Below are positions 3,460 to 42,878 of a DNA stretch of 48,914 nt, piece after piece. The stretch is from a virus: IMG/VR virus record IMGVR_UViG_3300036770_008698, positions 1-48,914 of that record. One strand, 5' to 3'. Under the pieces are notes generated by a model. That model was not told the DNA's origin. It saw nothing but the letters and a program-made list of their open reading frames with translations, and ran no database searches. How positions within the stretch are numbered: the stretch's first letter is position 1; every line of letters starts with the position of its first letter. Position numbers and translations under genes: made by a program.

Positions 3460-4398
3460 ATGGTGATGTTGCGATGGTTATTGGCGAGGCAGCCACAGAA
3501 CAATTTCGGCCTGTGCATAGCAGGCGCAAATTTCGGTTACGTCGTGTTCAACAATGTCGATAAGTACCAATTCTCCAACAACTCACGAACGGCGAGCACG
3601 AGTCTTTCAACTGGCAGGGAAGGCGCAGCATCTGCAGGGAATTTCTCTTTTGCAATAATAGCCGGAGGCGGAGTGCCTGCTGGTTCGCCTCCATCATCAG
3701 TGGCGGTCGTTTCTTCCTCTGAAAAATTTACATATACCACATCCGCTGTCTCGTCTGTGACGTCTCTTTCGACCGCACGAGCATATCTGGTGTCAGCAGG
3801 AAATTCCGAAAAGGCATATTTTGCAGGTGGCACCACTACTTTTAGTAGCGTCAATACGCTGATAGCGGAGTCATACACATATAACACTGACTCGGTCACA
3901 TCAGCAACAAGCCTGACAGGAACTGCTCGACGCGCTATGGCTGGATTCGCATCACAAACTCATGGCTTTTTCGCCGGCGGAGGTACTGACACAGTATACT
4001 TCACCACACACAACAAGTATCAGTTTTCCGACGGCGCTGTAACATCGGCAACAGCATTGTCGACCGGAAAATATAACATGGCAAGTGCTGGAAATAATAG
4101 CTTCGGCTTGATTACTGGCGGATATACTGGGTCAGTCATTTCGACGAGTGAAAAATACACGTTCTCGACAAATGCTTGGTCATCGGCGACCGCTCTCACA
4201 AATGCCGTGAATGCTCATGCAGGGTTTGGGAATTCATCTGTTGCGGTTTTCATCGGCGGCTTGAATTCATCATTCGCGTATCAATCAGCTAGCCAAGTTT
4301 ACACCTACTCGTCCAACACCGTCGCAGCTGGTGGGAGTCTTGGAACCGCAAGGTATAGCTTAGCCGGAGTATCCACAAACCCTGGACATTTATCATGA
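3460..4398 (+). CDS. Kelch-like repeat fibre protein, copy 1
   Basis: This 312-residue protein begins MVMLRWLLARQP and is built from about six repeats of roughly 48 residues. The repeat pattern is FxAGGxT, KYTFSTNAWSSATAL, TARxxLAxAGN. Such beta-propeller or prism-like repeats are common in phage tail fibres and bind host surface ligands. The start lies 7 bases after the HAEG fibre stop. The first ~30 bases of coding DNA are nearly identical to those of the next kelch gene, so the two arose by tandem duplication. Its stop overlaps the next ATG (ATGA). Confidence 0.8.
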   Translation: MVMLRWLLARQPQNNFGLCIAGANFGYVVFNNVDKYQFSNNSRTASTSLSTGREGAASAGNFSFAIIAGGGVPAGSPPSSVAVVSSSEKFTYTTSAVSSVTSLSTARAYLVSAGNSEKAYFAGGTTTFSSVNTLIAESYTYNTDSVTSATSLTGTARRAMAGFASQTHGFFAGGGTDTVYFTTHNKYQFSDGAVTSATALSTGKYNMASAGNNSFGLITGGYTGSVISTSEKYTFSTNAWSSATALTNAVNAHAGFGNSSVAVFIGGLNSSFAYQSASQVYTYSSNTVAAGGSLGTARYSLAGVSTNPGHLS

Positions 4399-4457: not shown

Positions 4458-5338
4458 TGTTGCGGTGGCTATTGGCGAAGCAACCTCCGGCTGCCGCTGG
4501 TTCTGGATATTTTGCCGCAGGCACAGGTGGTTCGGCTGTTGCCACCGTTGACAAATATAAATTTTCTACAGATTCCAGAACGCTCGGAACGAGTTTGTCT
4601 GCAGCCAAGACGGGGCCAGGAGGAGCCGGAAATCTTTCGAAGGGGATATTTGTCGGAGGAGGAATAAGTGGCTTTGTTGCAAATGGAAACATTTATACAT
4701 ATTCTACCGATGTGGTTTCTACTTCGGCAAATTTATCGCAAGCAAGGTCTGACATTTCAGGGTGCGGGACTTTGACTGTTGGCATTTTCGCCGGAGGCTA
4801 TACCGGTGTAGAGGTAAAAACCACTGATAAATACACTTACAGCACCGACACTGCGGCAGCGACGACATCAATCAATCAATCGAAATCTGGCATTGGATCG
4901 GCAGGAAATTCAACTGTTGGCTATTTTACCGGAGGTTACACCTCAGTGACCACTGTGAGTAAATACACTTACAGCGGAGACACAGTCTCGAGCGGAACAG
5001 CGTTGGGAACTGCAAGAGATTACCATGGCGCGTCGGGAACGAGCGTAGTCGGCATCTTCGCGGGAGGCAGAAGCGGCTCGCCATTTGTGGCGACATCTGA
5101 TAAATACACATATTCAGGGGATACTGTTGCAGCGGGAACAAGCCTCGCAAACGCAAGAGGGTTTTTGACAGCTGCCAGTGATGCGACAGTCGGCATCTAT
5201 GCAGGCGGAAGCACTGGATCATTTGTTTCCACATGCGAGAAATATACATTCTCGAGTAATTCGGTCGCAAATGGAACGAGCCTTAGTTCCGCCCGAGGCT
5301 TTCTGAACTCGACATCATCAACTCCCGGTGGCCTATGA
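4451..5338 (+). CDS. Kelch-like repeat fibre protein, copy 2
   Basis: This 295-residue protein has repeats of the form GYFTGGYTSVTTVSKYTYS, SGDTVxxGTSLxxARG. ATG 4451 is chosen because MVMLRWLLAKQP aligns with the start of copy 1; an upstream start at 4427 exists in the same frame. The bodies of the two kelch proteins have diverged far more than their starts, consistent with diversification of receptor-binding surfaces. The stop overlaps the next small ORF as ATGA. Confidence 0.8.
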   Translation: MVMLRWLLAKQPPAAAGSGYFAAGTGGSAVATVDKYKFSTDSRTLGTSLSAAKTGPGGAGNLSKGIFVGGGISGFVANGNIYTYSTDVVSTSANLSQARSDISGCGTLTVGIFAGGYTGVEVKTTDKYTYSTDTAAATTSINQSKSGIGSAGNSTVGYFTGGYTSVTTVSKYTYSGDTVSSGTALGTARDYHGASGTSVVGIFAGGRSGSPFVATSDKYTYSGDTVAAGTSLANARGFLTAASDATVGIYAGGSTGSFVSTCEKYTFSSNSVANGTSLSSARGFLNSTSSTPGGL

Positions 5339-5418
5339 TTGCCAAGAACAACCGCCTCAACACCGATTTTCAGATTGACAATTTCCTTGTCGGCTCATGC
5401 TCACTAAACTTTTCTTAG
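5335..5418 (+). pseudogene. Remnant MIAKN ORF 2 (27 aa)
   Basis: The ORF reads MIAKNNRLNTDFQIDNFLVG, matching the start of the intact gene at 5444 (MIAKNNRRNTHFQIEHFLIG), and stops five residues after a shared SC. About 22 residues align and then the frame ends. It is best read as a duplicated, truncated 5' end of the downstream gene. Confidence 0.6.
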
Positions 5419-5443
5419 ATTATGGAGTACATTTCCAGCTTAT

Positions 5444-6070
5444 ATGATTGCAAAAAATAATCGTCGCAATACACATTTTCAAATTGAGCACTTTCTAATT
5501 GGGTCGTGCCACACGGCTGATGGTGCATACTCTCTGCTCTGCGATCTTCGTGAAGAAAGAAATGATGCTTTGGCACAAGTAGAAGCAAGCTCGCTTAGAA
5601 CTCGTGCTAAGCTTATAAAAGCTGAGCGCAATTTATCATCCCCTGATGAAGTCAAGAGACTTAAGGCGCAGGCAGACATATCAGAGATCACGGCACACGC
5701 AGATACACTGCAGCGCAACATCGCCGCGGCGAGGGCTGAACTTGCATTCATTGATGACTGCATCTCAAAGATACAGCCACACCGAAAGTTTGGACACCTA
5801 CCTGATCTTGAGGCGCATGAGGCGGCGCAGCGCGATGAATGGCGCCTCGAACTAGAGTACAGGGCAGTAAACTTCCTCGTCACAGCAGGAACAATACCGC
5901 ACGATCACTTCGCTTCAATGAGGCAACATCCTGACTTTGAGACGCACATATTACCTGCCATCGAGCAAACTAAAGCCCTGCTTGTCGATGGCAGAGTAGA
6001 ACTACTTCTAACTGCGCCCAAACCCGCTTTCTTAGCACTCGGAGGACCTGATGTACGCAAGGATCAATAA
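5444..6070 (+). CDS. Coiled-coil tail-fibre-associated protein (MIAKN family)
   Basis: This 208-residue protein has a conserved N-terminus, then a charged heptad-rich segment at about residues 35-110 (EERNDALAQVEASSLRTRAK) expected to form a coiled coil, then an alpha-helical C-terminus. Genes like this commonly follow kelch-repeat fibres in phages and may help fibre assembly or attachment; that role is inferred from position. It overlaps the start of the tail assembly chaperone gene by 20 bases, suggesting translational coupling. Confidence 0.65.
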   Translation: MIAKNNRRNTHFQIEHFLIGSCHTADGAYSLLCDLREERNDALAQVEASSLRTRAKLIKAERNLSSPDEVKRLKAQADISEITAHADTLQRNIAAARAELAFIDDCISKIQPHRKFGHLPDLEAHEAAQRDEWRLELEYRAVNFLVTAGTIPHDHFASMRQHPDFETHILPAIEQTKALLVDGRVELLLTAPKPAFLALGGPDVRKDQ

Positions 6071-6528: not shown

Positions 6529-6780
6529 ATGCAAACAGAAATTCAACCAGTGACATTCTTTCGTAAATCAGCAACTGTTCTCAAGATCATGGGTGTAAAC
6601 ATTCGTCAACTGGGTCCCGGCGGATCTGTACTCGTTCTTTGCATTCTGCAAAGCGCCTCGGGCGAACACCTGCATAATGAAGCTTTTACCCTAGCTGGAT
6701 CTGATTATGATCAGTGGGGAAGTGATGACAGTTATTTATTGACCAAAGCACTCGAGGCACTAGGTCTAACCGCTGCCTGA
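6529..6780 (+). CDS. Small conserved protein ending the tail operon
   Basis: This 83-residue protein starts MQTEIQPVTFFRKSATVLKI and contains VNIRQLGPGGSVLVLCIL. A Shine-Dalgarno-like AAGGTG lies 7 bases upstream of the ATG. Small proteins of this type often follow the tail assembly chaperone gene in phages; no biochemical role is known to me. Its end overlaps a convergent minus-strand fragment by 15 bases. Confidence 0.65.
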   Translation: MQTEIQPVTFFRKSATVLKIMGVNIRQLGPGGSVLVLCILQSASGEHLHNEAFTLAGSDYDQWGSDDSYLLTKALEALGLTAA

Positions 6781-6903
6781 TCTCCTTGTGTCTTTAGCGA
6801 TCTTACGAATGTGCCGTGACACCTCCGCATAAAAAGGGTTTTCCTGAAGAAACACAATGAGGCGCTTCTCTATGTTGAAATCGGTATTCGTTGCCTTCCA
6901 CAT
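6766..6903 (-). pseudogene. N-terminal fragment of the VWA/metallopeptidase gene
   Basis: The 45-residue reading starting MWKATNTDFNIEKRLIVFLQ aligns closely with the first 40 residues of the intact VWA protein (36669-38015, MWASTETDFNLERHLITFLQ) and then stops. The metallopeptidase and VWA parts are missing. The frame is open upstream (GWEYTVN before the ATG), so a longer product from a non-ATG start cannot be excluded. It may be a decayed duplicate or a stand-alone N-terminal domain. Confidence 0.6.
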
Positions 6904-6971
6904 GTTGACAGTGTACTCCCAACCCAACAGGCATTGCACAACACATAACAAAAAATTTTCGTCAATGAAAA

Positions 6972-7022
6972 ACGCACTGCCTAAATCATCAACGAACTTG
7001 TCGAAAAAGTAGTGCAGTGCGT
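6972..7022. repeat. 9-bp inverted repeat in an intergenic stretch
   Basis: ACGCACTGC at 6972-6980 is mirrored by GCAGTGCGT at 7014-7022, with a 33-base AT-rich loop. It lies in the ~150 bases between the VWA fragment and the next minus-strand gene, where no certain gene is seen. It could be a terminator for the 7056 gene or an operator. Confidence 0.4.
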
Positions 7023-7055
7023 GAGATGAGCTCAGAATATTCGAGAATATTCGAA

Positions 7056-7373
7056 CTAGGTAACCACCTTCTTGATGAGCAGACAGCGGTCTGTCATGCT
7101 CACGTACACTGGTGCGGCAGGCGTGTCAGCATAGTAGCCGGTTTCGTTGACTGAGTCCCACACCCACTTCTTTCGATTCCCATTTGAAATCTTGTTGTAA
7201 GAGCCTGAGCGGCCGCTCGAGTGAGATCGGGCGATTTGAATCATTTGTTTGTACCCATCAAGCTTGATTACCTTGCCCAGGGTAAGAAACGGCCCACCAC
7301 GATCAGAAACGTAAGCGATCGTGTCTCCAACTTCGATGGCGTTACCCATCATGTCCCTCGGTTCATAGCTCAT
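7056..7373 (-). CDS. Beta-rich protein of the small KOW-like group
   Basis: This 105-residue protein begins MSYEPRDMMGNAIEVGDTIA and includes GKVIKLDGYKQMIQIARSHS and a tryptophan-rich middle (KKWVWDSVN). The GDTIAYVSDR strand followed by a V-I-K-L strand resembles the small SH3-like proteins abundant in this genome. It has a Shine-Dalgarno (AAGGAGA) and starts one base after the ligase stop, so it is the second gene of the ligase transcript. Function unknown. Confidence 0.65.
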   Translation of the reverse strand: MSYEPRDMMGNAIEVGDTIAYVSDRGGPFLTLGKVIKLDGYKQMIQIARSHSSGRSGSYNKISNGNRKKWVWDSVNETGYYADTPAAPVYVSMTDRCLLIKKVVT

Positions 7374-10038: not shown

Positions 10039-10296
10039 TTACCTATTTTTTTGAATTTTCTGAGAGTGTGGAGAGCCCTGCTGCATCGTGGGGCCAAAAC
10101 GAGCCCGCCTAAACTCTTCTAGACGCTGCTGCAGTTCATCCACGGCCTGCTGAGGTTCTTCAGCTTGCAACGAGCGCTCTAGCGCGCTCTTCTTCATTCT
10201 AGTCTCTGACACAATGCGATGTGCACAGGCGAGCGATAAAAAAAGTGCACCGGAACCAACTCCAGTGCACAAAATGGTAATTGCTAGGTCTATCAT
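10039..10296 (-). CDS. Small single-pass membrane protein
   Basis: This 85-residue protein has an N-terminal hydrophobic helix (about residues 3-26) followed by a charged helical domain rich in Gln, Glu and Arg (VDELQQRLEEFRRARFG). It overlaps the sigma stop by four bases (ATGA), so it is translationally coupled to sigma. Tethered coiled-coil proteins next to sigma genes can act as anti-sigma factors, but no known anti-sigma fold is visible. Confidence 0.6.
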   Translation of the reverse strand: MIDLAITILCTGVGSGALFLSLACAHRIVSETRMKKSALERSLQAEEPQQAVDELQQRLEEFRRARFGPTMQQGSPHSQKIQKNR

Positions 10297-11108
10297 GTGA
10301 GGCTCTTACCACTCATGACAGACTGGAGCTCATCTTCCGATATCGGATACTTCTCGGGGTTCTCCTCATCGACGAGCCCAAATCGAAGCCGAATGATTGC
10401 AGCTTCTTTGGGCGTCAGCTCCGCGATTACTTTTTTAGCTATTTTCAAGAGCTCGACTTGTGCGACAGACTCAAACGGATTCGCCTGTAGGCTGTGGTCT
10501 TCGACTTTGTCTTCAATTGAGTCGCTCTCATCATCTGAGGACGAGATCGGCTGCTGGAGAGAAATGACGGCCCGTCCACCGTGCATCGTGGCCTTGACAA
10601 CGGTCGTCGAGGCACCCACGAGCTTCGTCAGCTCTTCTTGTGTGGGTTCACACCCCATCATCTCTCGATATTCATCAGCAGCCTGCAGAAGCTTACGCTG
10701 GACGGCCGCAGCATGGGCAGGCAGGCGTATGATGCGCTTTCGCTTCATGACATGCTGGCCGATGGCTTGCTTGATCCACCAAGTGGCATACGTCGAAAAT
10801 CGAAAACCTTTATCCCACTTGAAGCGCTCCACAGCCTTCATGAGTCCAATATTACCCTCTTGGATGAGGTCTTCCATTGGAATATTATGGCTGCGGTACT
10901 GCTTCGCGATCGACACCACGAGTCGTAGGTTGCACTCAATCAGGCGGGCGCGAGCCTTCTCTGCGGCCCGGCCGCCTGCTTCAAAGCGCTGAAAAAGCTC
11001 CACAACTTCGGGGTGCTTCAGCTGCGGAAAGGTCTGAAGATTGTTGAGATAATCATTGATTGCGACATTCACGTTTTTCTTCTCTTTTTCAGCACGCTTT
11101 GAGTGCAT
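10293..11108 (-). CDS. Sigma-70-family RNA polymerase sigma factor, truncated before region 4.2
   Basis: This 271-residue protein carries region 1.2/2.1 (NLRLVVSIAKQYR, about 60-72), region 2.3-2.4 (GNIGLMKAVERFKWDKGFRF, then STYATWWIKQAI, about 85-116) and region 3 (about 124-205). It has region 4.1 (LTPKEAAIIRLRFGL, about 231-245). Primary sigmas continue with the region 4.2 HTH; here the chain ends about 26 residues later with an unrelated acidic tail. It should bind core polymerase and melt -10 elements. The -35 contact would need another protein, or extended -10 promoters, which this genome uses. It overlaps the upstream gene as TAATG. Confidence 0.9.
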   Translation of the reverse strand: MHSKRAEKEKKNVNVAINDYLNNLQTFPQLKHPEVVELFQRFEAGGRAAEKARARLIECNLRLVVSIAKQYRSHNIPMEDLIQEGNIGLMKAVERFKWDKGFRFSTYATWWIKQAIGQHVMKRKRIIRLPAHAAAVQRKLLQAADEYREMMGCEPTQEELTKLVGASTTVVKATMHGGRAVISLQQPISSSDDESDSIEDKVEDHSLQANPFESVAQVELLKIAKKVIAELTPKEAAIIRLRFGLVDEENPEKYPISEDELQSVMSGKSLT

Positions 11109-24375: not shown

Positions 24376-24453
24376 GTGCAAAGCCCAACCAACCTATGGT
24401 ACAAATAAAACATCCGGTGGGGAGGAACCCCCCGGTAAATTGGAGGAAGCCAA
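24376..24453 (+). promoter_or_regulatory. Promoter + leader cassette
   Basis: GTGCAAA at 24376-24382, 17 bp, TGGTACAAA; leader hairpin TGGGG-AGGA-ACCCC within CCGG/CCGG; GGAGG before ATG 24454. Confidence 0.75.
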
Positions 24454-36668: not shown

Positions 36669-38015
36669 TCAGCGCCAAGCTCCCGTCATTTTCCTCGCGT
36701 CATCCAGGAACACTTGGAGCTCGGAGGAGCTGAAGTGGAGCTTGCAGCCCCGGCTCAGGACCCAGCCACGCTTTACCCGGGACGATTCAGGCGCCGAGCA
36801 CTCCCCATCGGTCATGATGAGGAACCCATCCCAGCGTCCCCTGTGCTTCGGGTTGTTGATGAGCCGGGTGGGGGCGTTGAAGTCCGTGCCTCCACCCCGG
36901 ACCCGCTTGAGCTTCGGATTTGTGCCTTTCTTCCACTCAAAGATGTCGGACTCCTGTGCCGCGCAGTCGAATGGGAGGATATCCACCGACACCCGGCGCG
37001 TGAGGCTCGCAAGCTCAGAGAAGAAGCTCTGGAGCTGGCCGTCGTCTACCGAACCTGACTGGTCGATCGCGACGCAGAGGCGCGCAGTGTACCCTCGTTT
37101 CGTGCCTGGATGGATGTAAGGATACCTCTTATTGATGCGCTTGATCGAGGTCGAGCGCTCCGCTCGAGTGAGCGAGCCCACGAACTGGCGGAGGACGCTG
37201 CGCCAGTCGATCACCTGGGACACGGACTTGCGAATCTCGCGCTGGACGTCCGCAGGCATGGAACCCCAGCCATTCGGGCTGCTGTCAGCGTGGTTGACCG
37301 CCTTCTCCAGGATACCCTTGACCTTCCCCTCAAGGTACTCGCGCATGTCATCGGGCACACCGCCCCAGCCACTGTGGTCGTCCAGGGTGGGAGAGCCTGG
37401 GATGGTGTCACCATCTTGGTCTTGGTCTCCTCCAGGGCCGAAGCATGAACCAGGGTCGTTGCCCAGCTCTTCCAGGAGCTTGAAGAAATACCACTCTGAA
37501 GTCTGGAGCGGTGGGAAGGATGCGATGAGGGCCGACATCTTTTCATGCGCTTCCCGTACCTCAGGGGGCATCTTCTTCAGGGTCTCAGGGTCGATGGCGC
37601 TGGCTTGACCTGGGATGAGAGCGCCCTTGGGCAGGGGGCGTGCATCAGGTTTATCGCCCTCGCGGCGGTTGCCTGCTGAGGCGATGATGAGGGAGTTGAT
37701 CGCCAAGTCCGTGGCGATGTTCCAGAGCTTCGGGGGCTCGCGGTGGCGGGCAGCCAGGTGGCCGAAGACGAGGTGGTTAAACTCGTGGAGGAGGACGCCG
37801 CGAATCTCCCAGTTCGAGAGCTCCGCGAAGAACCCCGGGTTCCAGTACAGGGTCAGCTCGTCCGACTCCTTATTCCAGGCGATGGCCGCAGTCGGGAGAC
37901 GGGTCGTGGGGGTCTTCCGGACGTGCCGGGAGATTTCCGCGTAGAAGGGTGACTCCTGCAGGAACGTGATGAGATGCCGCTCGAGGTTGAAGTCAGTCTC
38001 AGTTGATGCCCACAT
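36669..38015 (-). CDS. VWA-like protein with HExxH metallopeptidase domain (DUF2201-like)
   Basis: From ATG 38015 (GGAGGAA upstream) the 448-residue protein has an N-terminal domain (ETDFNLERHLITFLQESPFY), a zinc site GVLLHEFNHLVFGH (HExxH at about 77-81, extra His about 86) and an acidic linker. A C-terminal VWA-like domain follows with MIDAS AIDQSGSVDDGQ (about 316-327) and a second acidic metal loop (ILPFDC). Bacterial relatives pair with MoxR-type AAA+ ATPases; one is encoded at 40529. Its N-terminal part is duplicated at 6766. Confidence 0.85.
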   Translation of the reverse strand: MWASTETDFNLERHLITFLQESPFYAEISRHVRKTPTTRLPTAAIAWNKESDELTLYWNPGFFAELSNWEIRGVLLHEFNHLVFGHLAARHREPPKLWNIATDLAINSLIIASAGNRREGDKPDARPLPKGALIPGQASAIDPETLKKMPPEVREAHEKMSALIASFPPLQTSEWYFFKLLEELGNDPGSCFGPGGDQDQDGDTIPGSPTLDDHSGWGGVPDDMREYLEGKVKGILEKAVNHADSSPNGWGSMPADVQREIRKSVSQVIDWRSVLRQFVGSLTRAERSTSIKRINKRYPYIHPGTKRGYTARLCVAIDQSGSVDDGQLQSFFSELASLTRRVSVDILPFDCAAQESDIFEWKKGTNPKLKRVRGGGTDFNAPTRLINNPKHRGRWDGFLIMTDGECSAPESSRVKRGWVLSRGCKLHFSSSELQVFLDDARKMTGAWR

Positions 38016-38083
38016 ATTTCCTCCGGTGGTGTCCGTTGCCACCTCATGATCCCTTTGTAACATGGACCAATCGAGGTTTGCAC
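38016..38083 (-). promoter_or_regulatory. Promoter + leader cassette
   Basis: GTGCAAA at 38077-38083, -10 TGTTACAAA; leader GGTG-GCAACGGA-CACC; GGAGGAA. Confidence 0.75.
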
Positions 38084-38101
38084 CATCAGCGCAAATTAAA
38101 G

Positions 38102-38242
38102 CTAGGGTTTAACACAAATGTTCAAGAGTGCCATGAAGAAGATGAGGGTCGCGTAAATGTATGTCAAGTGCCGTCTGAACTGGGGTGGTGCAAGCCCCAC
38201 GAGGCACGCAGCCAGGAGCACCATGACAATGATGAGGCTCAT
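38102..38242 (-). CDS. Membrane micro-protein (46 aa)
   Basis: MSLIIVMVLLAACLVGLAPP, a basic loop and a second hydrophobic helix (IYATLIFFMALLNI). It begins inside the stop of the upstream gene (ATGA) and ends the five-gene operon from 39311. Confidence 0.55.
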   Translation of the reverse strand: MSLIIVMVLLAACLVGLAPPQFRRHLTYIYATLIFFMALLNICVKP

Positions 38243-38604
38243 GGGAGCCCGTCCAATCGATCCAGGAATTTCTTGGCGATGTCCTGCGCGGCGGGGAACT
38301 CCAGGTAGAAGGGTCCTCCGCCGTGGGCGGCACGGCACACCTCCCATGCCACCTTCTGTTCAGGAGTAAGTGGAGTCGTTGAGGGTCGTGCCTGGCCTGC
38401 CTCATAGATCCACTTTGCCAGTTCATCGATCACCATCTTCTGTGCCGCCTTCAATGCAGCCGTGTCAGGAGTGACGTCCCTCGTCCACGAAGTGATGCCG
38501 GGCTTGACTGTGACCAGATAGTGACCTTCCGGAAGAGCGTCACGTGTCATGTGTTCTGCGACTGGATAGTATCGACGTCCCCGCTTCTCATAGTACGTAG
38601 TCAT
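38239..38604 (-). CDS. YEKxGRRYxPV-family protein
   Basis: This 121-residue protein starts MTTYYEKRGRRYYPVAEHMT, then GHYLVTVKPGITSWTRDVTP and a helical end with TPLTPEQKVAWE. The signature recurs in many phage small proteins of unknown role. It is coupled to both neighbours by four-base overlaps. Confidence 0.65.
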   Translation of the reverse strand: MTTYYEKRGRRYYPVAEHMTRDALPEGHYLVTVKPGITSWTRDVTPDTAALKAAQKMVIDELAKWIYEAGQARPSTTPLTPEQKVAWEVCRAAHGGGPFYLEFPAAQDIAKKFLDRLDGLP

Positions 38605-38825
38605 GGTCCCTCCCGGTCCTTGAGCCAGACCTCTGCTGTGATTCTAACACGCTGAGAGATCCGTACGGAGCTGTGATCGAGGGCACGCTTTACGCCCTCG
38701 GTGTCTCCCTCTCTCATGCGCCTCAAGACTATGAGGTCGAGCACGGCCTGGAGCACGCCCCATGTGACGAATGCCGCGAGCCCGACGCCCAGCAGGATGA
38801 CACCAGCGATAATGAGAGTGTTCAT
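38601..38825 (-). CDS. Small membrane protein
   Basis: From ATG 38825 (inside the upstream stop) the 74-residue protein has an N-terminal hydrophobic helix (MNTLIIAGVILLGVGLAAFV) and a charged helical tail. The operon alternates membrane and soluble small proteins. Confidence 0.55.
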   Translation of the reverse strand: MNTLIIAGVILLGVGLAAFVTWGVLQAVLDLIVLRRMREGDTEGVKRALDHSSVRISQRVRITAEVWLKDREGP

Positions 38826-39100
38826 AGTTCCGTCGCCTTGAAGTATCGTTGTTGTTCTTCGAAGAAGCTGATGACCGTCCGGAGGTCTGCGATCCACTCC
38901 ACCGTGTCGTCAGTGGACCATGCTGCAAGGCCCGGGGGAGGGTCCACAGGGGCGCTAAAGCCCCAGTCTCCCCTGGGAGTGCGCCAGAACATGGACACCT
39001 GTGGTGAGCCACCCACTCGAGCCCACCACCTGCCTCCGTATTCGATCACGTGAATCCGCCTGGTTGGATCTTTGGCGGATGGGATGAAGTGCTCTCTCAT
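38822..39100 (-). CDS. Small hypothetical protein
   Basis: From ATG 39100 the 92-residue protein reads MREHFIPSAKDPTRRIHVIE and includes WWARVGGSPQVSMFWRTPRG. The C-terminal half is helical (VEWIADLRTVISFFEEQQRY). It starts 11 bases after the 39111 gene. Confidence 0.55.
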   Translation of the reverse strand: MREHFIPSAKDPTRRIHVIEYGGRWWARVGGSPQVSMFWRTPRGDWGFSAPVDPPPGLAAWSTDDTVEWIADLRTVISFFEEQQRYFKATEL

Positions 39101-39110
39101 GTGGTCTCCC

Positions 39111-39311
39111 TCAGGTGCGAGTGTTGAAGTCCTCGTATGCGAAGGTCTCTTCGTTCGCGTAGAAATAGTTGCCCCGGTACGCGCCCTGGCCGTCGACTGT
39201 CGCCGCACGCCACGTCACCCAGGGCGTCACCTTGTTCTCAGGCAGGTGGCACAGGATGACGTACTCGCCACCTGTGGTTCGGCGGGCTCGCATGATGGTA
39301 AACTCTTGCAT
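39111..39311 (-). CDS. Small beta-rich hypothetical protein
   Basis: This 66-residue protein starts MQEFTIMRARRTTGGEYVIL and is strand-rich, with FNTRT at the end. It is the first gene of the only clear five-gene operon in this part of the window. Confidence 0.6.
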   Translation of the reverse strand: MQEFTIMRARRTTGGEYVILCHLPENKVTPWVTWRAATVDGQGAYRGNYFYANEETFAYEDFNTRT

Positions 39312-39382
39312 CGCTCATCTCCTGGGCGGGCACTCTCCCACCCCACAGTTCTGTTGTACCAAGATTGGCGGGCTATTTGCAC
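39312..39382 (-). promoter_or_regulatory. Promoter + leader cassette
   Basis: GTGCAAA at 39376-39382, TGGTACAAC; leader GGGTGGG-AGAGTG-CCCGCCC; AGGAGAT. It serves the 39311-38102 operon. Confidence 0.75.
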
Positions 39383-39394
39383 ACATTCACGAAT

Positions 39395-39796
39395 TTAATC
39401 GTCGACAGGCTTCACTCCGTCGAGAGTGCTGAGGATGTATCGTTGTCCCCGGCAGATGACCGTGTGACGTACGACACGCAGAGAACTCTTTGAAGTCTCC
39501 TCCTCGTAACGTACAGTGCCGGCATAGATGACAAGGTCACCCCGATGAGCGACAGTGGGCGCCGCCTGTGCCCAGGCTGGATCGCTCGTGACAAGGAGCG
39601 GATGGGGAAGATTCGTGTGGTACGTGTCCACGTATAGTTCTCGTTCGCAGGCAAGGAGCGCTCCTGGGTACAACTGGTCAGCGATCTTCTCCAGGTGAGA
39701 GGTGCTCTGCGCTCCCCTGTACCGTGGGGGAGGTGCAGGGCGTCCGGCAACCGCCGGGTCCTCGCCTGCCTTCCATGTCACCTTACGTCCTTTCAT
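39395..39796 (-). CDS. Hypothetical protein, probably leaderless
   Basis: This 133-residue protein begins MKGRKVTWKAGEDPAVAGRP. A helical middle (EKIADQLYPGALLACERELY) and a strand-rich C-terminal half (DLVIYAGTVRYEEETSKSSL) follow. Its ATG lies 6 bases after a -10, so no ribosome site is needed. Confidence 0.6.
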   Translation of the reverse strand: MKGRKVTWKAGEDPAVAGRPAPPPRYRGAQSTSHLEKIADQLYPGALLACERELYVDTYHTNLPHPLLVTSDPAWAQAAPTVAHRGDLVIYAGTVRYEEETSKSSLRVVRHTVICRGQRYILSTLDGVKPVDD

Positions 39797-39832
39797 GGTC
39801 CAACTCTACAATGTGCCTGTGGAAGTTTGCAC
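39797..39832 (-). promoter_or_regulatory. Promoter, leaderless type
   Basis: GTGCAAA at 39826-39832 and extended -10 TTGTAGAGT (hexamer 39803-39808), 17 bp apart; ATG 6 bases downstream. GGAGGTG/CACAGG-like pairing surrounds the -35 weakly. Confidence 0.6.
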
Positions 39833-39934
39833 ACCTCCACAAACTTTTTTTTCGGTTGGCAGGGTGGGCTGAGATGGGCTCTCGTAAATTCCATGGGAGC
39901 AAACCTATCTCATTTTGTCTCTTTTATCTGAGCC

Positions 39935-40498
39935 TCACTCAGGGTCAATTGTGGTCGAGGATCCCCAGGACTTGGAAGCCCAATCAATGTAAGTCCTCAA
40001 CATCTTTACCCGCGTGTCGTCGTAGCATGCACGATCCGACCGGATGAAGACCCCCAGCTTCCGGCCCAGCTTCCAGCCCCGGTGCCATGCCTCGAACTCT
40101 TCCTCGATGACGTCTAGCTTGTGCTGGGGGGAGCGGAGGGCCCGATCGTTCTTCACCCCGTAGCCCATGCTGAAGCGGCCGCCGGGCTGTTTCGGGCCAA
40201 TGAGTGCATGACCACACTCATGGAGGAGATAGTGGAGCTGAAGCTTGGGCACCGCCCGCTCGCTGATTGTGATCTTGTCCTGTGCGGGGAAGAAGATCCC
40301 TCCATGCTGGTTCTTGAAGACCACGGTCAGTGAGCGTGCGGTGCACCACTCCACCACCACGCGGAGTCCCTTGATATATCGAAGATCGTCCTCCCACTGT
40401 GACTGCACCTTGGCAGGCGCTCGGCCTGCCCGACGAGCCTTCTCGCGCCGGGCTTCGGCCCGTTCAATCCAGCGTTCTTCGATGAAGTGTGTTGCCAT
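39935..40498 (-). CDS. HExxH protein downstream of the AAA+ ATPase
   Basis: This 187-residue protein has LQLHYLLHECGHALIG (HExxH at about 93-97) after an Arg-rich helical N-terminus, and EEEFEAWHRGWKLG (about 132-145) as a plausible third-ligand helix. It resembles IrrE/minimal zinc peptidases. It follows the AAA+ gene by 30 bases with no promoter of the repeated type between, so the two are probably co-transcribed. Confidence 0.7.
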   Translation of the reverse strand: MATHFIEERWIERAEARREKARRAGRAPAKVQSQWEDDLRYIKGLRVVVEWCTARSLTVVFKNQHGGIFFPAQDKITISERAVPKLQLHYLLHECGHALIGPKQPGGRFSMGYGVKNDRALRSPQHKLDVIEEEFEAWHRGWKLGRKLGVFIRSDRACYDDTRVKMLRTYIDWASKSWGSSTTIDPE

Positions 40499-40528
40499 GT
40501 TAATATCTAGGCCCGAGGCCTGCCCACC

Positions 40529-41662
40529 TCACTTTTTGTTCTTCAACATCTCAGGAATGTTGGGGGTGACCCCGATGCCCTTCTCGCCCATGGGCACCCC
40601 GAACACATCCAGGATCGCAGCGGCACACCACTTGTGCACGGACTTCGCGAGCTCCAGCTTATCGAGTCCGTGGGCCGTGAGCTTGGACCAGCACGAGACC
40701 CGGAGCTCGCCTGGGATGTCCTTGATGAAGTCCTGGAGGTTCTTGCCCTGCTTGTCGGACAAGGTCGACAGGTTCTTCGTGACGTACTCGGCCACCTTTT
40801 CGACCAGGCCGTTGAGCCGGTCTTGGGAGAGCTTCTCGACTTTCTTCTTGAACTTGGGGTACCGCTCCACCACGTCCTCGCCCGTCACCCGGTTGTCAAC
40901 CGACTTGGCGAAGTCGTAGAAGGCGATCGAAGCATCCACACCAATGTAGCCGAGAGAGAGGGAATAGAAGGCGGAGTCCTCCGGATTGTCCGCGACCCCC
41001 GTGGCCATGAGACACTTGGAGAGACGCTCCCAGGAGCGGCGGCTTGGGTGGACCGAGCCTGCCTCGGTGTGCTTCGGGGGATCGAGCCACTTGTCGGCCG
41101 AGGAGATGAAGTCCGTGATTGTGGGGTGGATGGCACCCGGACCCCGGGCCCAGTTGAGCCAATCCTCGGTGGTGGGGGTCAAATCAATCGCCCAGAAACG
41201 ATCGAGAAGGGCCGGGTCCATCTCATTCACCGTGTACTCGGCCGAGGCATTGACCGCAGCAAACACCCGGGTCTGGGGATGCAGTTTCCATCCATTCAGC
41301 TCCCGGTCCAGGACGACCTGGAACGCAGCCTGCATCACCTCGTGGGTGGCGCGGTTGAGCTCGTCCAGGAAGAGGGTGACGGGGGCGTCGCAGGCCGCCT
41401 TGTACCAGTCGGGTGGGTTGAAGCGGGTGACGTTGCCGTCGGTGGATGGGAGACCAATCATGTCGCCCTCCGTCATCTGGGAGAGCCGGCGATCGATGAC
41501 CGGGAAGTTCTTGATGCCCTCCTTGGCGCCGATGGCAGCCGAGACCTGGCGGACGACCTGGGACTTGCCGATGCCGTGAGGGCCGCGGATGAGGATCGAG
41601 GTGTCCCGGGGGAGGAGAGGGGCAATTTCTACGAAGCGTGAGATGCTCATTGGGTTGTTCAT
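40529..41662 (-). CDS. MoxR-like AAA+ ATPase
   Basis: From ATG 41662 (AAGGAAA upstream) the 377-residue protein has Walker A GPHGIGKS (about 27-34), Walker B LFLDELNR (about 97-104), and a sensor-like RVFAAVNAS (about 132-140). A helical C-terminal lid region follows. Such ATPases act as chaperones for VWA proteins; the VWA/metallopeptidase at 36669 is the likely partner. Confidence 0.85.
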   Translation of the reverse strand: MNNPMSISRFVEIAPLLPRDTSILIRGPHGIGKSQVVRQVSAAIGAKEGIKNFPVIDRRLSQMTEGDMIGLPSTDGNVTRFNPPDWYKAACDAPVTLFLDELNRATHEVMQAAFQVVLDRELNGWKLHPQTRVFAAVNASAEYTVNEMDPALLDRFWAIDLTPTTEDWLNWARGPGAIHPTITDFISSADKWLDPPKHTEAGSVHPSRRSWERLSKCLMATGVADNPEDSAFYSLSLGYIGVDASIAFYDFAKSVDNRVTGEDVVERYPKFKKKVEKLSQDRLNGLVEKVAEYVTKNLSTLSDKQGKNLQDFIKDIPGELRVSCWSKLTAHGLDKLELAKSVHKWCAAAILDVFGVPMGEKGIGVTPNIPEMLKNKK

Positions 41663-41722
41663 GGTTTCCTTCCGTGGTGGTGAAGTAAGAACAGAGTACC
41701 ATGCCGGGCCGGGGCTTTGCAC
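41663..41722 (-). promoter_or_regulatory. Promoter cassette
   Basis: GTGCAAA at 41716-41722 inside GGGG/CCCC, with TGGTACTCT. No leader hairpin of the usual form. Confidence 0.7.
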
Positions 41723-41739
41723 CCCGGCCCAGCTTTTTT

Positions 41740-42501
41740 TTACGAGAGCTGGCTGAGGGAGCCCTTCTCATAGAGGCCCTTGTCGCTGAGGCCGAGGACA
41801 TAGGCGCGGCCTGAACAACCGAACCGGTTCTTGGTAACCTCGAAGATGCGCTCGCCAAAGGTCTCACTCTTCTTGTCGGTGTCGAGGAAGATGCGACCAC
41901 GGACGTCGACCGCATGGAGAATGCCGTTCTTGCCTGCAAACTCGCCCGACTTATTGACCTGGCCGATGAAGATGACGTTCGTAAAGTTCGTCTTCGCCCA
42001 GTCCGTGAGGCGCTCGACGACACGGAGCGGGGTGACGCTGTTGGGGCCATCCTTCCACTTTCCGTCGTCGAGGGTTTGGAGGGAGTCCTGGAGGATGAAG
42101 ACCTGCTTGCCAGGGTTCGCCTCGCGGAGGGCGTCCGCATGAGCGAGGAGGTCCTGCACCATCGTGTCCTGACCTGCCACGAAGCCACTCTTCAGCTTGA
42201 GGCGCTCGGTGACCATGCGCACCTGGTAGAGGCTCTCCTCGCCGGTGTTGTAGAGGCAGATGTGGCCTGCCGATGTGATGGAATCCGCGAGCTGCAGGAG
42301 CATCGTCGTCTTGCCCGCACCGGGGGTACCGGTGAGCATCATGACGCAGGAGGGGACGAAGCCTGTGCCACCGATGGCGTCGTCGAACCACTCGATGCCC
42401 GTGGGCATCCGGGTCCGGAGCTGCTCGGGCACCTTGATTTCCATGATGTTGGTGCCGTTGCGGAGGTTCTTGATACCGACATTGAGGTTCATCGAAGACA
42501 T
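41740..42501 (-). CDS. RadA/RecA-like ATPase
   Basis: This 253-residue protein has Walker A GTPGAGKT (about 58-65), Walker B VFILQDS (about 134-140) and the RadA-specific KNRFG motif (about 224-228). The zinc finger and the Lon-like C-terminal domain of bacterial RadA are absent. It should be a DNA-stimulated ATPase in recombination, branch migration or replication restart. It could instead be a replicative helicase relative, but KNRFG favours RadA. Confidence 0.85.
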   Translation of the reverse strand: MSSMNLNVGIKNLRNGTNIMEIKVPEQLRTRMPTGIEWFDDAIGGTGFVPSCVMMLTGTPGAGKTTMLLQLADSITSAGHICLYNTGEESLYQVRMVTERLKLKSGFVAGQDTMVQDLLAHADALREANPGKQVFILQDSLQTLDDGKWKDGPNSVTPLRVVERLTDWAKTNFTNVIFIGQVNKSGEFAGKNGILHAVDVRGRIFLDTDKKSETFGERIFEVTKNRFGCSGRAYVLGLSDKGLYEKGSLSQLS

Positions 42502-42583
42502 GGTCTATTGACTCCTAGAGGCCGGCGGGGATCCGTCCCCGCCTCATGAATTTGTTATATCAAGCTGGGCAGGTGCTTTGCAC
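42502..42583 (-). promoter_or_regulatory. Promoter + leader cassette
   Basis: GTGCAAA at 42577-42583, -10 TGATATAAC; leader GGCGGGGA-CGGA-TCCCCGCC; AGGAG. Confidence 0.75.
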
Positions 42584-42803: not shown

Positions 42804-42878
42804 CGTCATTCTCCACTCCGCGGGGTACCATCCCCGCCGGATGAATTTGTTGTACCACAAGGGTCCGGGGGTTTGCAC
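42804..42878 (-). promoter_or_regulatory. Promoter + leader cassette
   Basis: GTGCAAA at 42872-42878 inside CGGGGG/CCCCCG, TGGTACAAC; leader GCGGGG/CCCCGC; GGAGAATGACG before ATG. Confidence 0.8.

Follow-up and report, generated by a model that had tools for sequence, protein, structure and literature searches.

A small zincin behind the MoxR-like ATPase of the phage MoxR-VWA pair: a candidate ATP-driven remodelling and processing module

Genes and promoter-like elements of the locus

The analyzed window is a whole IMG/VR virus record of 48,914 bases, in which all genes of the studied set lie on the minus strand (Table 1). Using profiles, motifs and alignments, we found all four proteins that an initial annotation of this DNA had placed at the locus, i.e., a MoxR-like ATPase, a DUF2201 protein with both HExxH and MIDAS, a second HExxH protein and a RadA-like ATPase. 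Since the contigs that carry relatives of the set reach 369 kb, the record is likely to be a jumbo phage fragment. Elsewhere, the window encodes tail-fibre-type proteins, a DNA ligase and a phage sigma factor (10293-11108), and no structural genes were found beside the set. A DNA-level search against phages with the first 20 kb of the window returned no match. Membership of the set in a defence system was rejected, since PADLOC gave only weak matches.

Table 1. Positions of the genes and regulatory features of the set in the window
Feature	Position	Strand	Basis or remark
DUF2201 zincin + VWA domain protein, N4 gp25 relative	36669..38015	-	PF13203, PF09967, HExxH, MIDAS
Promoter-like element of the VWA gene	38055..38083	-	pattern match
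Small conserved neighbour gene, 133 residues, possible accessory	39395..39796	-	homologues in 13 related groups
Small zincin (HExxH2), distant M78 (IrrE/ImmA)-like metallopeptidase	39935..40498	-	motifs, AF2 model, position behind MoxR
Gap between MoxR stop and HExxH2 start, 30 bases	40499..40528	-	Shine-Dalgarno-like GAGGTGG, no promoter element
MoxR-like AAA+ ATPase, N4 gp24 relative	40529..41662	-	AAA_5, phrog_1297, Walker motifs
Promoter-like element of the MoxR-HExxH2 unit, GTGCAAA-N14-TGGTACTC	41694..41722	-	variant; matches the layout of the 34 copies
RadA-core ATPase without zinc finger and LonC, loose neighbour	41740..42501	-	KNRFG, PDB RadA, TIGR00416
Promoter-like element of the RadA-core gene	42555..42583	-	pattern match

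The MoxR reading frame, 40529-41722(-), matched AAA_5 with 43.4 bits (cut-off 22) and phrog_1297 at 2e-56, with the CobS-like phrog_249 as a secondary match. Its product is an AAA+ ATPase in which Walker A (GxHGxGKS) and Walker B (LDELNR) are kept, along with N158, R175 and R229, as judged from 13 aligned proteins. The true start at 41662 was set by alignment with relatives; the GTG at 41722 lies within a promoter-like repeat.

The VWA reading frame, 36669-38063(-), with a true start at 38015 according to the alignment with relatives, matched PF13203 with 59.8 bits (cut-off 23.2) and PF09967 with 30.3 bits (cut-off 26.4). The protein thus combines a VWA domain with an N-terminal zincin, and both active sites are intact: HEFNH in the zincin, and the full MIDAS set DQSGS...T...D. 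Its predicted model has a middling pLDDT of 69.5 and matches VWA folds; comparison of the protein with solved structures gave weak matches only. Among the homologues, HExxH is present in 58 of 58 true VWA proteins and therefore is not a chance occurrence; no substitution was seen in HExxH, the downstream D or the MIDAS residues, a count in which a few residues are absent where a contig ends and from which the gene adjoining MoxR in phiKT1024 was excluded. The same motifs are present in N4, RaK2, SCTP-2, phage G, Thermus phiFa and one Ruegeria phage. Proteins of PHROG 1314, including N4 gp25, the gp25-like protein of RaK2 and gp576 of phage G, are widely annotated as "HNH endonuclease". We rejected this label for the VWA protein, which has no HNH Pfam match and consists of DUF2201_N and VWA; the annotation apparently traces to one label. 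As a separate observation, the last ~45 residues of the frame 6769-7125(-) are similar to the N-terminal end of the VWA protein (37 bits), and this frame may be a truncated second VWA copy or a remnant.

The small zincin carries HECGH and EEEFEAW. Across 27 aligned family members HECGH, E133, E134, A137, W138 and G141 are invariant, and its HExxH is therefore not a chance match either. The window protein itself matched no known family, the M78 profile PF06114 included; 17 of the 27 family members touch that profile, and at least one relative exceeds the cut-off (24.7 versus 22 bits). The best match in the viral library was an unnamed 143-residue protein (E 2.6e-4). An AlphaFold2 model of high quality (pLDDT 91.9) has the HExxH helix followed by a helix with the invariant EE, and its leading PDB matches are zincins with IrrE on top, none of them significant (none with E <= 0.001). 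The protein resembles the M78/IrrE-ImmA peptidases in HExxH, a downstream acidic residue and a putative zincin fold, and differs from them in lacking both a PF06114 match and a significant PDB fold match. We call it a putative M78-like zincin, a distant relative rather than a member of M78.

The fourth protein has a RadA/KaiC-type ATPase core with an invariant KNRFG motif and aligns with RadA from PDB over residues 29-246 (7e-31). Its match to TIGR00416 reaches 106 bits (cut-off 403) and covers only model positions 54-285 of 454; with the N-terminal zinc finger and the C-terminal LonC missing as well, identity with full-length RadA/Sms was rejected. A RadA-core gene lies within 10 kb of MoxR in 16 contig groups, in varying positions and on either strand. 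The RadA-like ATPase of the initial annotation is thus present as a core, but the gene is a frequent, mobile neighbour, and we rejected it as a fixed component. The same annotation had suggested that five small genes at 38102-39311, three of them for membrane proteins, may belong to the system. This suggestion was not supported: their homologues occur in 0-1 of 32 related contig groups, so they were rejected as components, and only two of them (38102 and 38601) have a clear, strongly hydrophobic transmembrane segment. Homologues of the 133-residue neighbour gene lie mostly within 2 kb of MoxR.

A promoter-like element, GTG(C/T)AAA-N14-TGGTACAA, occurs 34 times in the window, for instance at 42878, 44170 and 46266 on the minus strand and at 24376 and 26399 on the plus strand. 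The copies were found with a slightly degenerate pattern in which spacers of 10-26 were allowed; the spacer is 14 in all copies, and 0.2 copies were expected from mononucleotide shuffles. A stable fold follows 31 of the 34. The elements are probably the phage's own promoters. Downstream there is usually a 5'UTR hairpin with varying arm sequence and a GGAG site. In front of many minus-strand genes (e.g., at 42878, 44170 and 48110), the GTGCAAA box itself often falls within the loop of a strong GC hairpin that has an A-run before it; seen from the other strand, this arrangement would look like an intrinsic terminator.

MoxR, the VWA gene and the RadA-core gene have one element each, and the small zincin has none of its own in the window. 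Given this lack and the gap of 30 bases between the two genes, the natural inference is that MoxR and the zincin are probably placed on a shared transcript.

Conservation of the MoxR and VWA genes in phages

We surveyed 136 loci, collapsed by shared 40-mers into 89 contig groups, with profiles of the four families; these groups are phylogenetically non-independent and most of the records are incomplete. MoxR is immediately followed by a VWA gene on the same strand in 39 contig groups, a count that does not represent a population frequency, since relatives were drawn from pattern-seeded scans. Both profiles were found in 10 of 10 isolate phages, which had been selected for a match to either one. 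Conversely, neither was found in a small, hand-picked set of controls (T4, phiKZ, SPO1 and P-SSM2). MoxR and the VWA-metallopeptidase are therefore a conserved pair in large phages. The initial annotation had named a lack of joint conservation in relatives, together with a lack of physical interaction, as speaking against its proposed system; joint conservation is what was observed. We consider the MoxR-VWA partnership well supported.

Direct adjacency of the two genes is usual and not required. Both are present in the window, 2.4 kb apart on the same strand; elsewhere in this lineage they are 4-9 kb apart or inverted. They are separated by ~4 kb and lie on opposite strands in PVP-SE1, and are ~45 kb apart in the Vibrio phage phiKT1024, where the gene adjoining MoxR was rejected as a VWA gene, the true one being at 81976-83097 of the record. 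In CMS1, gp28 lies between the gp24- and gp25-like genes and is not a zincin.

A different reading of such a conserved pair is that it represents a chaperone for metal insertion or activation, like NorQ/NorD, CbbQ/CbbO and CobS/CobT, with the zincin fold as a relic that does no cutting. To our knowledge, proteolysis is not known for bacterial MoxR-VWA pairs of this kind, which speaks for the reading, as does the secondary match to the CobS-like phrog_249. Conversely, an HExxH retained in every true VWA protein and a second intact zincin accompanying the ring speak against a relic, and the MoxR profile had no match in P-SSM2, which was chosen as a control because it carries cobS. We regard this reading as quite improbable. 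Active-site conservation in both zincins suggests instead that the module likely has peptidase activity.

The pair itself is not new, since it has been described in several phages and viruses (PMC7824862, PMC7650795, PMC2147016, PMC4124505). Iyer et al. 2021 (PMC7824862) described a MoxR and metallopeptidase-vWA pair in group 2.2 jumbo phages and suggested for it a part in virion assembly that includes processing; the proteins are the same two, with the zincin N-terminal to VWA and MoxR as the partner, but the passages on the pair make no mention of a second zincin behind MoxR, and in the window VWA is displaced with a zincin in its slot. N4 gp24/gp25, which one or more of three methods placed in the core of N4-like phages (PMC7650795), encode a homologous ATPase and HExxH-MIDAS protein, adjacent and on one strand; there is no small zincin alongside, and the record annotates gp25 as "HNH endonuclease". 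For Bacillus phage 0305phi8-36, a MoxR pair was reported in 2007 (PMC2147016). The archaeal virus ATV has a MoxR protein, p618, and a VWA partner, p892, which interact experimentally and are linked to tail development: p892 binds p618 strongly and raises its ATPase activity (PMC4124505). Unlike the phage pair, the ATV system has no peptidase domain, according to PMC7824862. A literature search for DUF2201 together with MoxR found nothing, nor did we find in the literature an experimentally reported function of the MoxR-VWA-zincin pair in phages. In E. coli, RavA-ViaA likewise joins a MoxR ring to a VWA partner, with a LARA domain in RavA and without a zincin in ViaA.

A second zincin in the slot behind MoxR

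In 24 contig groups from the lineage of the window, the window among them, the small zincin is the gene that immediately follows MoxR on the same strand, and three contigs binned into bacterial MAGs have the same arrangement. In these 24 groups it fills the slot held by VWA in the 39 groups above. The VWA gene is retained elsewhere, sometimes far off, in 11 of the 11 searched records of at least 41 kb that have a MoxR-zincin unit; the three MoxR-zincin records lacking it are all fragments of 30-35 kb. In three further records (L050, L110 and L134), the small zincin is 6.5-7.7 kb from the MoxR-VWA pair. One record (L016) has two copies, at 3659-4213 and 5076-5573, and here too the zincin is found behind MoxR. 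It is thus very likely that the second HExxH protein belongs to the set, as the initial annotation had it. We did not find in the literature a description of a small zincin behind MoxR as part of a MoxR-VWA system, and this element appears to be new.

The small zincin is not essential to the module, since two long records from this broad group, L003 (340 kb) and L089 (324 kb), lack it, as do most of the distant MoxR-VWA phages. In a rival reading, MoxR and VWA would work as a module and the small zincin would be an unrelated passenger held in place by inherited gene order, for instance a protease of the ImmA/IrrE type that cleaves a regulator or defence protein of the host. Besides its absence from close relatives such as L003, the weak M78/IrrE resemblance is consistent with a passenger, and so are the homologues found in records with no detected MoxR, many of which are fragments. 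MoxR identity among the linked contigs is 45-89%, and the divergences of MoxR and the zincin are moderately correlated (r = 0.54); the fixed position could come partly from shared ancestry. However, 24 groups retain the adjacency even though VWA, RadA and the small neighbours were relocated or lost, the zincin occupies the usual slot of VWA with no promoter element between it and MoxR, and even the duplicated zincin of L016 remains behind MoxR. A passenger zincin is, in our view, unlikely. On balance, partnership of the small zincin with the MoxR ring is favoured.

Possible functions of the module

We consider it reasonably probable that the set is an ATP-driven module for protein remodelling and proteolytic processing. 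A hexameric AAA+ ring would be built from the MoxR-like protein, and the VWA protein would dock on it through its MIDAS, with an acidic residue in either the ring or the client as the ligand. The N-terminal zincin domain of the VWA protein would then cut the client loosened by the ring, and the small zincin, probably co-transcribed with MoxR, may be a further cleaving or adaptor subunit of the same ring. A more specific version, held tentatively and with less than even confidence, is a three-part AAA+ machine composed of a MoxR ring, a VWA-fused zincin and a free zincin in the operon slot of VWA, i.e., an ATP-dependent metalloprotease of an undescribed kind.

The likeliest client would be a structural or assembly protein of the phage, because ATV p618/p892 acts in virion assembly and, in some phages, structural genes are found close to the pair: the pair follows three virion protein genes in RaK2, and four virion proteins are encoded near the gp24/gp25 homologues in roseophage RPP1 (PMC4193335). 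This is a partial analogy, since structural genes are lacking beside the set in the window and the SCTP-2 pair sits among replication genes. The module might instead cleave or remodel a host complex during takeover. Such a role would fit the position of gp24/gp25 among the middle genes of N4 (PMC4193335), the location of the pair among replication and metabolism genes in SCTP-2 and a Moorella phage, and its spread over phages with very different virions. It fits poorly with ATV p618, a virion protein with tail-linked partners (PMC4124505), and with the virion genes near the pair in RaK2 and RPP1, and we find a host target rather unlikely, if less so than a passenger zincin. As the gene context is mixed, virion assembly is a leading guess only.

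The MoxR-VWA-zincin pair belongs to the core set of N4-like phages and is also present in phage G, RaK2 and many marine phages. The strict conservation of active sites, the co-occurrence of unlinked genes and the tight coupling of another zincin to the ring gene provide concrete partners and residues to test. If the proposed mechanism is true, phages would own an ATP-driven metalloprotease, which would bear on the maturation of large virions or on host takeover.
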